Shown here: one piece after another, positions 8,460-26,823 of the stretch
Layout of the letters: every line of letters begins with the position of its first letter
Position numbering within the stretch: position 1 is the stretch's first letter
DNA from: a virus
Reading direction: 5' to 3' (one strand)
DNA length: 41,443 nt
Virus record (IMG/VR): IMGVR_UViG_3300020202_000142
Span: 1 to 41,443 of that record
Position numbers and translations under genes: made by a program
Notes under the pieces: generated by a model
The model's database searches: none
Told to the model about the DNA's origin: nothing
Seen by the model: the letters and a program-made list of their open reading frames with translations, nothing else

Positions 8460-10115
8460 ATGCCTGCTGTCCCTAGATACCCCACAGGTCGCGTTGAAAA
8501 TGCTCCAGTTCCGGGTTTCCGGTCCGGAGCTTTTGCAAATGCCGACTCGTTTGGTGGTGCTCAAGCTGAAGTGCTCGGAAATGTGGCTGCCGGCATGGGG
8601 AAAGCTGGCTATATGCTTTCAAATCGAGCTGTTGAAGAACAGGACCAGCTTAATAAGTCATTGGTTCGTGAGGCTCTGAATCAGGCAAAGATACAAACGC
8701 GCGATTACCTAACGAGTGACGTTTATTTGCGGCAGGGATCGAATGCAATCAATGTCGTTCCAGAGGCCCAAAAGAAGTTTGGCCAGATTCGCGATGGCTT
8801 ACTAAAGAACCTGCAAAACGATGCTCAGAAAGAAATGTTTCGCCAGCTCTACACCGATTTGGAGACGGATCATATCGGTAGCGTGATGACCTTCCAGATG
8901 CGTGAGCGCAAGCAATATGAGCATCAAACGATTTCGGCGGAGAATCAAAACGCAGTCGAGGATGCGGTTCTGAATCGGTCAAATCCGGAGGCGATCAAAA
9001 AAGCGGAGGAAACGATTGCGTTTAATACTGCGTACCAGCATCGCGGCTTCGGTCCAGAAGTTCGAAAAACCGAGGCAACGAAGGGCCTCAGTGTTTTGCA
9101 TAGCAAGATTCTCGAAGCAACAATGATGGAGTCCGCAAGAGCTGGGTTGGCTTACCTCGAAAAGAATAAATCTAAGTTTTTGCCTACGGATTACCTGAAG
9201 TATCGGAAGACTTTAGAGCATGAGGTCATGAGCGAAGCGGCAAACGAGATGGCTATCAGCCTTGCGAGCCAACCCGATATGACGGCTGATAAGGCCCGCT
9301 TTGTCATCGATGAGCAAGTTAAAGATGAGAAGCAAGCGGCTCTTGTAATGTCTGGTGTAAAGGCTCGCCTCGCAGAAAAGGAAGCTGCCATGACGCTGCA
9401 GCAAAAACAATTTGTGGAGTCTTCTTGGAAAAGTTTCATTGAAAATCCTTCCCAAGAGATTCCGAAAGCTTTACCGGCGGATGAGCAAATCAAAATGCAG
9501 GAGTACCGGGAAAAAGCTGCAAAGCGAACAATCGGACAGTCTCAAGAAGATTCTTACGGAAAGCTTCTAAGTTTTCCGGCGAATGAATTTGTAAACCTCA
9601 ATCTCTTCGAGCATAGAGCGGAGTTGAGTCAGCATGATTTCAATTATCTATTCAAGCTTCAGGAAAAGATGCGAAAAGGGGGGGATCAAGAGACTGATAA
9701 TTTTAAAGAGGGTCTTCGGTTAGCTAAGGATCAAATGAATTTAATGACCTACTTCGATACGAGTAAGGAACGTGTTGAAGCAGAAGCGGATCGATTAAGA
9801 AACGAAAGGCGGCAACAGGAGTTTCTCGCTGTGTTTTCGAGGCGGCTCCAAAAGCTCCCGGACAATCAGCGTAACGATTATAAGAAAGTTCAGGAGCTTG
9901 TGAGCGAGTTGCTTACAAATGTTGTTTTAAATAATACCGATAACGACTGGATTCCGTTTAACGAAAAGAAAGCGAAGCAATTTGAAATTGAAGCTGGCTC
10001 TGCGAGCGTTCGAACGTATGCCAGCGTTGCTGAAGTCCAAGCGGATTTCAAAGCCGGTAAACTTACACGGGAACAAGCCCGCTCGGAATTGATGAAGCTG
10101 GGCTATAAACCATGA
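8460..10115 (+). CDS. Internal virion protein C-like (ejection protein)
   Basis: This 551-aa, almost fully alpha-helical, Gln/Lys/Glu-rich protein is the second of three ejection genes. The N-terminal RVENAPVPGFRSGAFANADSFGG type motif (residues about 10-33) and the following helical repeats recall gp15-like ejection proteins. It is expected to be packaged in the internal core and exported with the DNA. The 3' end overlaps the giant next gene by ATGA. Function is inferred from position and composition. Confidence 0.75.
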   Translation: MPAVPRYPTGRVENAPVPGFRSGAFANADSFGGAQAEVLGNVAAGMGKAGYMLSNRAVEEQDQLNKSLVREALNQAKIQTRDYLTSDVYLRQGSNAINVVPEAQKKFGQIRDGLLKNLQNDAQKEMFRQLYTDLETDHIGSVMTFQMRERKQYEHQTISAENQNAVEDAVLNRSNPEAIKKAEETIAFNTAYQHRGFGPEVRKTEATKGLSVLHSKILEATMMESARAGLAYLEKNKSKFLPTDYLKYRKTLEHEVMSEAANEMAISLASQPDMTADKARFVIDEQVKDEKQAALVMSGVKARLAEKEAAMTLQQKQFVESSWKSFIENPSQEIPKALPADEQIKMQEYREKAAKRTIGQSQEDSYGKLLSFPANEFVNLNLFEHRAELSQHDFNYLFKLQEKMRKGGDQETDNFKEGLRLAKDQMNLMTYFDTSKERVEAEADRLRNERRQQEFLAVFSRRLQKLPDNQRNDYKKVQELVSELLTNVVLNNTDNDWIPFNEKKAKQFEIEAGSASVRTYASVAEVQADFKAGKLTREQARSELMKLGYKP

Positions 10116-18732: not shown

Positions 18733-19203
18733 ATGAAGAAATATATCCTCTCAATCTTAACCGTTCTTTCTGTTTGCGCGTTCGCTGGAGATCGCGTCTA
18801 CCAGGGAACTCTTTCAAACGCGGTTCAGTTTATCGCTGCAACCAGCACGAACGAAACCAAAGGACCGATTCTTGATCTTTATGATCCTCCGAATGGAGTT
18901 GTGCTCGATGGTATTTCTATTTTTGGCCGCTGCGCTGGCCATACCGCTGGAGCGACGAACGCGACTGGAAATGCAACTGTTATCGTTTACGTAGAACGCT
19001 CCTGGGACGGAGTGAATTTTGATACAGCTCTTAATTCAGATTTGAAGCTCACGATTCCGATCAATGGCGTAGCAACAAATCAGGTAAGCATTTATAAAAA
19101 CGTGGGTGGAGCTCGCTATCTCCGTATCGGCAGAACCGAGCATATCAGTCTTGGAATCGGCACTAACTTCGCTTTCGGGGTCTCTGGCGTCTATAGGCGG
19201 TAA
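18733..19203 (+). CDS. Secreted beta-rich protein of unknown function
   Basis: This 156-aa protein has a clear signal peptide: MKK, a hydrophobic stretch, then AFA at residues 16-18 before GDR. The mature part is Thr/Gly/Val-rich and probably beta-sandwich (VIVYVERSWDGVNFDTAL, then GGARYLRIGR). A secretion signal between fibre and lysis genes is unusual. It could act in the periplasm during lysis, block superinfection at the receptor, or bind the envelope. No family was recognised. Confidence 0.75.
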   Translation: MKKYILSILTVLSVCAFAGDRVYQGTLSNAVQFIAATSTNETKGPILDLYDPPNGVVLDGISIFGRCAGHTAGATNATGNATVIVYVERSWDGVNFDTALNSDLKLTIPINGVATNQVSIYKNVGGARYLRIGRTEHISLGIGTNFAFGVSGVYRR

Positions 19204-19222
19204 TCTACTTCATATCCATCTT

Positions 19223-19543
19223 ATGACTAGCAACTTAAGATCGGCGGCTGACAAAACATTAAATGAAGTGCTCGATGCAAAGGGATCGCTGATCTCGGGA
19301 TTGCTCGCTCTCACTCTCAAATACGGCATGGCTCCATTATGCTGCATGTTCCTTGGCTGGGTCTGCCTGGAGCAAAATAAAATTATTCGTGAGCAGAATG
19401 CGCAAATGGTGAATCAAAGCAATGCCTATGCGGAACGGTCTATCGAGGTGATTGCTAAAAATACCGAGGCAATTACCAAGTCGGTCGAGGTTCAAGCCAA
19501 CCTGGTAAAAATCATCGAAGATCGTCGAAGAGTTCTCCCGTGA
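19223..19543 (+). CDS. Single-TM lysis protein (holin or inner-membrane spanin)
   Basis: Starting at the ATG at 19223, this is 106 aa with a 24-residue N-terminus, one membrane segment (about 25-50) and a charged helical tail (51-106, with ENKII/EVIAKN-type heptads). A TM segment followed by a periplasmic coiled coil is the plan of an Rz-like i-spanin, and the next gene overlaps it by GTGA and encodes a lipoprotein. A single-TM holin is the alternative; no other holin candidate was seen. An upstream start at 19106 would overlap the previous gene and is not preferred. Confidence 0.68.
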   Translation: MTSNLRSAADKTLNEVLDAKGSLISGLLALTLKYGMAPLCCMFLGWVCLEQNKIIREQNAQMVNQSNAYAERSIEVIAKNTEAITKSVEVQANLVKIIEDRRRVLP

Positions 19544-19866
19544 AATTTTTGAGCCTTCTTCCTCTTTTGCTTTTAGTCGGCTGTTCCAGTTACGGAACTC
19601 GCTTTGAAGTGGTCACGCCTGATGGAACAAGAGCCAGTTTAGAAATTGAAAAGGAGGTTGATGCCGATGATCCGATGTTCGTTTATGACCCGAAAACGGG
19701 GTTTATTATTTTTTCTGCAACTAAGTGGCGCTCTCGAAATGCAGAAAGCATCAAAGCCGATGGAAAGCGAGCAGAGGGCGTCTTGGATAAAACCTCCAAT
19801 CTCGTTGAGAAAACCGCCAAAGGAGCGGCTGAGGGTGCTGCAAAAGGTTTAATTCCAATCCCATGA
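19540..19866 (+). CDS. Lipoprotein in the lysis cassette (possible outer-membrane spanin)
   Basis: This 108-aa protein has a GTG start overlapping the previous stop. Residues 1-15 form a signal peptide with the lipobox LLVGC (Cys15), followed by SS, an outer-membrane-type +2 residue. The C-terminus is Ala/Lys-rich and helical. Adjacent to a single-TM coiled-coil protein, it could be the o-spanin that fuses the membranes at lysis. It is longer than typical Rz1 and not Pro-rich, so the role is uncertain. Confidence 0.7.
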   Translation: MKFLSLLPLLLLVGCSSYGTRFEVVTPDGTRASLEIEKEVDADDPMFVYDPKTGFIIFSATKWRSRNAESIKADGKRAEGVLDKTSNLVEKTAKGAAEGAAKGLIPIP

Positions 19867-20501
19867 AAAACATTCCGGTAAAATTTCGGGAGTATGAATT
19901 TTTCTTGGTAAACGGTATTCGAACCCGAAAGGATATTCATGGATGGTGTCCTCGCTCTGAAATTTGGATTGAGCATCGTCTTGGTCATGCAACTTGGTTC
20001 CACTATCACGCATGGGCTTCTACGCGATGGATGACACAAGGAAAACATCTAAGAGAGATGTGGGAGGAGCTGGCGAAGATCAAGCGACCCATTATCTACG
20101 TAGGCCATTCAAACGGCTGCGAGCTTTTCTCACGAACAGTAAAAGAGCGACCGGAGTTCAAGTTTGCCGCGGCTCATTTATTCGCTCCAGCATGTCATCA
20201 GGATTTTGAGGAGAACGGCTTTAACAAAGCTCTCCTTGATGGTCAGGTTGGTAGGATTTACGCCTATTGCAGTAAAGGAGATGGAACTTTGAAGTATTGG
20301 GCTTCTTTCTCTCGTGTAGCGAAATGCGTCGGCCTTGGATACGACTCAATGGGGTATTGCGGTGCCGACAAAGAGACCATTCATCCAGGCGTAAAAGCCA
20401 AAAAGCTCTATGTCGAAGAGTGGTATCCCGATGATTACGATCATAATGATTGTTACGAGCGGGATTTTGAAAAGTTCAATGTAAGCATGCTCCGGGTATG
20501 A
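19863..20501 (+). CDS. Alpha/beta hydrolase in the lysis cassette
   Basis: This 212-aa protein has the serine-hydrolase nucleophile elbow GHSNG at residues 81-85 (Ser83). Possible triad partners are Asp140 (CSKGDG) and His194 (DYDHND); VNGIR near 16-20 could form the oxyanion hole. It overlaps the lipoprotein upstream and the endolysin downstream by ATGA, placing it firmly in the lysis operon. Such a neighbour recalls LysB esterases of actinobacteriophages, but that context is unexpected in a genome with Gram-negative-type lipoproteins. The substrate is unknown: an ester in an outer lipid layer, or a lipoprotein. There is no signal peptide. Confidence 0.78.
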   Translation: MKNIPVKFREYEFFLVNGIRTRKDIHGWCPRSEIWIEHRLGHATWFHYHAWASTRWMTQGKHLREMWEELAKIKRPIIYVGHSNGCELFSRTVKERPEFKFAAAHLFAPACHQDFEENGFNKALLDGQVGRIYAYCSKGDGTLKYWASFSRVAKCVGLGYDSMGYCGADKETIHPGVKAKKLYVEEWYPDDYDHNDCYERDFEKFNVSMLRV

Positions 20502-20947
20502 TTTCTTTGGCGCACGCTGCGGCAATCACTAAAGCCAAACTGGATACGCTTCAACCTGAGTTTCGGAAGAAGGCCCAAGATTGGTTTGAGGCCTGTGTTC
20601 AGGCTGGTCTTGCTCCGTATATTTACGAGGGATTTCGATCAATGCAGCGGCAAGCAGAGCTTTACCTAAAAGGGCGCGGTGCTCCTGGTAAAATCGTGAC
20701 AAATGCTGAACCTGGTCAGAGCTTCCACAATTACGGCCTAGCCTTCGACTGGGTTCCTCTTAAACGAGTTGAAAAAGCTGAAGGTATGTACGAGGCAGAT
20801 TGGGGCAATGAGGCTGCCTATGCGCTTGGTAATTCGATTGGTGAGAAGTTAGGAATGCGCCAACTTTCCTGGGAGCGACCACATCTTGAAGACGCGAGGT
20901 TCAACAACTGGCGAGAGCTGAAAGTTAGTTTTCCCAGTAAATCGTAA
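20498..20947 (+). CDS. Endolysin, M15-type peptidoglycan endopeptidase
   Basis: This 149-aa protein is the L-alanyl-D-glutamate or VanY-like peptidase that cuts peptide cross-bridges at lysis. Motifs are EGFRSMQRQAELY (44-56), SFHNYGLAFDW with zinc ligands His77 and Asp84, and SWERPHLE with His129. There is no signal sequence, so release depends on a holin. It is the last rightward late gene; its final 23 bases overlap the last gene of the leftward early operon. Confidence 0.92.
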   Translation: MISLAHAAAITKAKLDTLQPEFRKKAQDWFEACVQAGLAPYIYEGFRSMQRQAELYLKGRGAPGKIVTNAEPGQSFHNYGLAFDWVPLKRVEKAEGMYEADWGNEAAYALGNSIGEKLGMRQLSWERPHLEDARFNNWRELKVSFPSKS

Positions 20948-25895: not shown

Positions 25896-26425
25896 TCCCC
25901 CTCCTTCGCTTCAGTGCCAGACAGGGCGGCTTCCTTTACCTTCGTTAATCCCAAGAACTCCTTTTCGCTTATGTCATGATTGATTGCCTCAAGATACAGA
26001 AGCTCAATAGCTTGATCCTTCCTCTCTATGGCCTGCTTGAGGGAGGTGAGTTCTGCTTCTAGCTGATTCTTCACCATTAAAACCCTGTCGTAAGCTGCCG
26101 CTATCTTGTGATAATCATGGGCAATCTTTTCACGCTCCTCCTTGAGCCTCTCTAATTCTGCTACGTCAACGCTCTTAACGTTAGCCATAACTAAGTTCAT
26201 AGACGAATGAGCGGTCTTCGTAGCTTCGTGTAATTGCTTTTGGAGCCTCTCTATCTGTGGGAGGTAGTGGGCAACTGCATATTCAATACCAACTTCAACC
26301 CAAACAGAGTCGCCTTTGCCAACATATCCTCCCGGCTGAAGAAGACGATTTCTCCAAAGATCTATAAGCTTATTGCGTTCGGCTTCAAACCGCTCTTCCG
26401 AGGTGGTGGGGGTGGGTGAGGTCAT
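25892..26425 (-). CDS. Coiled-coil phage protein
   Basis: From the ATG at 26425 (ATGA overlap) this is 177 aa. After an N-terminal helix and a GDSVWVEVGIEYAVAHYLPQ segment come long heptad-rich helices. Such coiled-coil proteins are common in early operons; no specific function can be given. Confidence 0.72.
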   Translation of the reverse strand: MTSPTPTTSEERFEAERNKLIDLWRNRLLQPGGYVGKGDSVWVEVGIEYAVAHYLPQIERLQKQLHEATKTAHSSMNLVMANVKSVDVAELERLKEEREKIAHDYHKIAAAYDRVLMVKNQLEAELTSLKQAIERKDQAIELLYLEAINHDISEKEFLGLTKVKEAALSGTEAKEGE

Positions 26426-26823
26426 ATCCTTGCCTTTCTCCATGTATTCCAACTAGTATTCCATTCACCACTCTCAATGAGCCTAATACGTCTTTCGTTT
26501 GCGATTTTAACGGCATGTTGTGCATCTTTAGCCCACATACAGAAAGCAACGTGCTTGTTGTCATCATAAGGACGCCATTCTTCTTCCCATTGGTCTCGAC
26601 AGTCACGCACTGAGACTTCTTCGGTATTACCTTCTTTATCCATGATAACGACGTAATAAAGCATTCCCCGAGGGTGGTCTGGAATGTCGTCTAACTCGAT
26701 TTCTTCAATATCATTCAAGGCATGAAACAATCTTTTTGCATACTCAGCTTTCTCTCTTGTCGAGTAAATGCCCTCAACGCGATAATCTGAATAATCACCG
26801 TCTGTTACCATATATAATTTCAT
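26422..26823 (-). CDS. DUF7336-like phage protein
   Basis: This 133-aa protein begins MKLYMVTDGDYSDYRVEGIYSTREKAEYAK (residues 1-30; the first 20 are the diagnostic part), as in the DUF7336 family. A later segment CMWAKDAQHAVKIANE resembles its C-terminal helix. Function unknown. Unusually, 19 nt separate it from the gene upstream. Confidence 0.78.
   Translation of the reverse strand: MKLYMVTDGDYSDYRVEGIYSTREKAEYAKRLFHALNDIEEIELDDIPDHPRGMLYYVVIMDKEGNTEEVSVRDCRDQWEEEWRPYDDNKHVAFCMWAKDAQHAVKIANERRIRLIESGEWNTSWNTWRKARI

Follow-up and report, generated by a model that had tools for sequence, protein, structure and literature searches.

Judged from its gene content, the virus represented by the IMG/VR record IMGVR_UViG_3300020202_000142 is a temperate phage of the podovirus type. 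The alpha/beta serine hydrolase in its lysis module represents a family of phage enzymes not described before, new in itself but within a known functional niche. The whole record, positions 1 to 41,443 (41,443 bases), was analysed and is called the window hereafter; the hosts of IMG/VR contigs are unverified, and gene starts were set mechanically in this analysis. Starting from the observed fold, catalytic triad, gene coupling, recurrent lysis neighbourhood and genome matches within one phylum, the explanation that we consider the likelier one, with some reservation, is that this enzyme is a holin-released esterase of the lysis module attacking the outer membrane or its attachment in a diderm host, probably one of the Verrucomicrobiota.

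The window encodes a head-tail connector, a major head protein, tail tubular proteins, internal virion proteins, RecT, an integrase and a terminase. One internal virion protein (8460-10115) shows an N-terminal match to an endolysin-type PHROG (phrog_10475, E 1e-18) and is probably, from this match, a virion-borne wall hydrolase for entry. On the 3' side of the tail-fibre region lies a compact row of + strand genes encoding a signal-peptide protein, a protein with one transmembrane (TM) segment, a lipoprotein, the hydrolase and an M15/VanY endolysin. The signal-peptide protein (18733-19203), just 5' of the lysis genes, has a homologue at the same place in L098 (L098:3969-4397; 29% identity, E 6e-9; L numbers designate the loci of relatives), both being encoded between tail-fibre and lysis genes, and fibre-like proteins with signal peptides, unusual among phage structural genes, also occur at that place in L098, L099 and L084. 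The one-TM protein (19223-19543), whose reading frame is listed at 19106-19543 and whose start was taken at the in-frame ATG at 19223, ends in a C-terminal coiled-coil-like tail; no family match was found for it in the PHROG and Pfam searches, and its topology and position make it a candidate holin or inner-membrane spanin. It is followed by a small lipoprotein of 108 amino acids (19540-19866; lipobox LVGC, lipobox sequence MKFLSLLPLLLLVGCSS), by the hydrolase of 212 amino acids with its ATG start (19863-20501), and by the endolysin, an M15-family (VanY) peptidase of 149 amino acids (20498-20947; PHROG endolysin E 8e-17, Pfam VanY E 1.3e-11). The ATGA coupling of the hydrolase to the lipoprotein and endolysin genes, claimed in a preliminary description of this DNA, was found on both sides, as the hydrolase start overlaps the lipoprotein stop by four bases (19863-19866) and its own stop overlaps the endolysin start in the same way (20498-20501).

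That description had also assigned to the hydrolase a GHSNG motif with Ser83 as nucleophile, together with plausible Asp and His partners. GHSNG indeed occupies residues 81-85 of the reading frame present at 19863-20501, and the partners are Asp140, conserved in 58 of 58 family members, and His194, conserved in all 57 members that cover it. Structure prediction, which had been proposed as a check, agrees with this assignment: AlphaFold2 (AF2) supplied with a 12-member alignment gives a canonical alpha/beta-hydrolase core (pLDDT 80.8, pTM 0.83), whose order of elements fits that core from strand 3 through strand 8, whereas prediction from the single sequence, without alignment, is poor (pLDDT 44.0, pTM 0.46). 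In the alpha/beta-hydrolase superfamily the nucleophile follows strand 5, the acid strand 7 and the histidine strand 8, and Ser83, Asp140 and His194 stand at these places, with N17-G18-I19 as the oxyanion loop. Besides Ser83 and Asp140, the residues His82, Asn84, Gly85 and Ala110 are invariant across the 58 members, and Gly18, Trp28, Tyr48 and Gly164 are, like His194, unchanged in the 57 members covering them. The window hydrolase itself sits on a long branch of the family tree and deviates at three family-conserved places (His47 for Glu, His62 for Arg, Asp161 for Gly). Close family pairs have dN/dS values of 0.06-0.30, a sign of purifying selection which rules out that the hydrolase is a chance reading frame. 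The PDB neighbours retrieved by Foldseek are esterases, lipases and thioesterases of the alpha/beta-hydrolase superfamily, including YdeN-type structures, and among the viral ones there are partial matches to LysB; since the global TM-scores are modest (mostly 0.4-0.6), these matches back the fold class and not any particular substrate. The model is a small lid-less core, and the protein amounts to a catalytic domain alone, devoid of signal peptide, TM segment, lipobox and carbohydrate-binding module, the aligned members beginning near the first strand of the fold.

Single-protein searches came back empty from INPHARED phages, plasmids, PDB sequences, PHROGs, NCBIfam and viral contigs, and the first relatives were obtained with a degenerate DNA pattern made of two motifs, NGI ... 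VGHSNG, set at a variable distance. This pattern hit 14 viral loci, and at 11 of them the encoded protein is clearly homologous (phmmer 1e-13 to 3e-28); an alignment of the first members then recovered 47 loci from viruses and 15 from bacterial genomes, and 58 distinct members were left once duplicates were removed. No PHROG or NCBIfam model was found for the family, and its Pfam matches are marginal: the window hydrolase scores 22.9 bits against PF06821 (E 9e-5), above the gathering cut-off of 22, and at E 0.1 or better PF06821 is matched by 4 and PF05990 (DUF900) by 6 of 12 members, the assignment to PF06821 being weak. A compact alpha/beta-hydrolase core is common to the family, PF06821 (Ser_hydrolase, YdeN/RBBP9) and PF05990, whereas W28, Y48, R55 and a GYG.LG motif are family-specific, as is the phage lysis context. 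The hydrolase was not found in 50 records of podoviruses with related capsids, and no description of the family, or of lysis cassettes in Verrucomicrobiota phages, was found in the open-access literature.

The recurrence of the gene beside endolysins in other phages, another check that had been put forward, holds in part: the hydrolase does recur beside endolysins and lipoproteins, but in roughly half of the relatives no endolysin can be recognised within 1 kb of it. An M15/VanY endolysin adjoins it in the window, L121, L119 and L099, the last with a hydrolase-M15 unit joined by a 4-base overlap, and peptidoglycan-hydrolase proteins with an M15 domain do so in L102 and L133. Elsewhere the neighbour is a CHAP-like endolysin (L092, L104, L110, L116, L142, L145, L152), a GH108 endolysin (L109, L112, L122, L123) or a T4-type lysozyme (GH24; L158), while tail-type genes adjoin the hydrolase in four members (L132, L138, L140, L143). 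In 19 of the 58 members, including L141 (recognised by phmmer only), a peptidoglycan hydrolase gene lies no more than about 300 bases away, and 27 of the 58 have an endolysin within 1 kb when weaker candidates are included, namely a 180-aa family (six loci), an SLT-like protein and a YkuD protein; the seeds for these counts were taken from the same neighbourhoods, and the counts thus describe the loci rather than constitute a test. Near-same hydrolases stand beside a CHAP-like endolysin in L104 and a GH108 endolysin in L109 and L112, so that one hydrolase is retained across an exchange of endolysins. As for the lipoprotein, a lipobox reading frame adjoins the hydrolase in 20 of 54 members, a frequency reached by none of 2000 random draws; among 236 control genes from the same loci, 3 have such a neighbour. 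The window lipoprotein is homologous to those found directly 5' of the hydrolase in its nearest relatives (phmmer 1.3e-12 for L092/L100 and 1.4e-10 for L121), where the gene order is lipoprotein-hydrolase-CHAP (L092/L100) or lipoprotein-hydrolase-M15 (L121). Lipoprotein and hydrolase therefore travel together, with an endolysin that varies between M15 and CHAP.

Verrucomicrobiota is a diderm phylum without mycolic acids, and it accounts for all of the family's matches in cellular genomes: a scan of 84,980 bacterial and archaeal species genomes gave 15 matches in 13 genomes, assigned to Verrucomicrobiaceae, Prosthecobacter, Verrucomicrobium sp. BvORR034, Opitutus/Opitutales and subdivision 3. 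Among 388 sampled genomes of the phylum, the hydrolase was present in one, the search centre itself, a rarity which points to a prophage-type rather than a housekeeping gene, and the Verrucomicrobiota entries are scattered across the hydrolase tree. The closest counterparts of the window's head and terminase genes are those of Salmonella/Pseudomonas/Vibrio-type podoviruses, and searches with the window terminase and integrase found no decisive Verrucomicrobiota relative. The hydrolase of the L118 phage groups with Verrucomicrobiaceae loci. The host of the window phage is probably a member of the Verrucomicrobiota, mainly on the strength of the hydrolase, to which the upstream homologue in L098 and one gene common with L118 are added. 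In the window, a small gene on the - strand (26422-26823) with a DUF7336-like start is 53% identical to L118:8924-9322; it had no match in INPHARED and does not place the host.

Within the favoured explanation, we infer the timing of action, the release by a holin, the outer-envelope substrate and the host of this phage. Devoid of an export signal, the hydrolase would stay in the cytoplasm, like the M15 endolysin, and would reach its substrate only once the inner membrane is opened by the cassette's own membrane protein or by another holin. The Ser83-Asp140-His194 triad would then cut ester (or thioester) bonds of the outer envelope, the likeliest targets being acyl esters in the outer membrane or in whatever attaches it, and, after cleavage of the peptidoglycan by the endolysin, the outer layer weakened by the hydrolase would give way. 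The tie to a lipoprotein, taken with the confinement to one diderm phylum, favours such a substrate over generic peptidoglycan.

An unlikely alternative is that the hydrolase modifies peptidoglycan, stripping the glycan of O-acyl groups (or the wall of some other decoration) on behalf of the paired endolysin. Its direct coupling to several kinds of endolysin gene, a route to the periplasm identical to that of the endolysin and the small lid-less core of the AF2 model would all suit such an enzyme. To our knowledge, however, the peptidoglycan O-acetylesterases that have been well described belong to the SGNH/GDSL or CE4 enzymes, from whose folds the alpha/beta-hydrolase fold differs; besides, the recurrent lipoprotein points to the outer membrane, and O-acetylation is so widespread that a restriction to one phylum would not be predicted. 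That the hydrolase is a cytosolic enzyme, with a metabolic, anti-defence or lysogenic-conversion function, merely placed in a late operon, appears quite unlikely: the lack of a signal peptide and the position of about half the relatives away from any recognised endolysin would fit, but the strong enrichment of lipoproteins and the translational coupling with unrelated endolysins across phages speak against it. Very unlikely, finally, is a depolymerase or lipase freed at lysis to clear host exopolysaccharide, vesicles or membrane debris that would otherwise trap the progeny, a role like that proposed for PghP and a Pseudomonas syringae phage lipase (PMC12173070) and compatible with the tail-type genes beside some members, but ill-matched to a bare catalytic domain with neither carbohydrate-binding module nor signal peptide.

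The holin-released outer-envelope esterase invites comparison with LysB (Lysin B, PHROG 102), the mycolylarabinogalactan esterase of phages that infect mycolic-acid bacteria (PMC6116005, PMC5707550). LysB has been proposed to reach its substrate after the holin opens the inner membrane (PMC6116005). In both cases a serine alpha/beta hydrolase is encoded in a lysis cassette, beside an endolysin, in phages of one envelope type; the LysB motif is nevertheless GYSQG instead of GHSNG, and the genome matches of the window family are diderms lacking mycolic acids. Profile comparison with hhalign gave a probability of 1.3 for the LysB of D29 and Bxb1, against 2.4 for E. coli BioH, by which homology to LysB was rejected, and PHROG 102 was not matched by the window protein and by only 1 of 12 members (E 0.0076). 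Of the earlier idea of a new envelope-degrading lysis enzyme in a phage with Gram-negative-type lipoproteins, the real alpha/beta hydrolase in a lysis cassette and its recurrent context stand; envelope degradation and an effect on lysis would be predictions. By the profile comparison the hydrolase is distinct from LysB, though its mode of action may resemble that of LysB, a logic made reasonable in a Gram-negative-type phage by the family's genome matches, all of them to diderm Verrucomicrobiota. A partial precedent comes from siphophages of P. syringae pv. actinidiae, in which a GDSL lipase gene lies next to holin and endolysin genes and for which the authors proposed an action on the outer membrane or EPS (PMC12173070); it is likewise a serine esterase gene in the lysis cassette of a Gram-negative phage, but the enzyme has a GDSL/SGNH fold and a carbohydrate-binding domain and concerns other hosts. 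Membership of the window hydrolase among GDSL/SGNH lipases was rejected on its GHSNG nucleophile motif and alpha/beta-hydrolase fold.

Two-component spanins of the Rz/Rz1 type resemble the present system in serving the stage of outer-membrane removal in diderm hosts and in the presence of a lipoprotein gene in the cassette, but they are non-enzymatic and act via membrane fusion, whereas the window protein is a hydrolase alongside a lipoprotein. With neither TM segment nor lipobox as an anchor in its sequence, the hydrolase was rejected as a spanin itself. Its neighbours at 19223-19543 and 19540-19866 might, from their predicted topology, form a spanin pair, which would lessen the need for an outer-membrane enzyme and counts against the favoured explanation. 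The hydrolase and lipoprotein may replace spanins, or the hydrolase may act in addition to a spanin pair. To the broader proposition that Verrucomicrobiota phages carry their own outer-envelope esterase, a separately arisen analogue of LysB that works with a small lipoprotein apart from spanins or in their place, we give somewhat less than even credence.

About 13% of 677 surveyed genomes have no recognisable spanin, and how the outer membrane is disrupted in such cases is an acknowledged open question (PMC6139136). If true, a conserved, phylum-specific serine hydrolase of the lysis cassette would represent an enzymatic route of outer-membrane breach parallel to LysB, and would make this question testable in culturable Verrucomicrobiota. 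It would also hint at an undescribed ester-linked feature in the envelope of these bacteria, and the family provides a sequence marker for the phages of this poorly studied phylum.

Two further observations concern the surroundings of the hydrolase. The 180-aa reading frames found 3' of it in L139, L146, L147, L150, L151 and L153 have no PHROG match and share the motif PWWVVG.LHSME (PWWVVGILHSMECGLSFHQHLHNGDPL); they are possibly an undescribed endolysin. Some relatives have genes for DNA methylases, of C5 and D12 types by the Pfam tally, near the hydrolase (L134:5097-5972, and downstream of it in L114 and L115).
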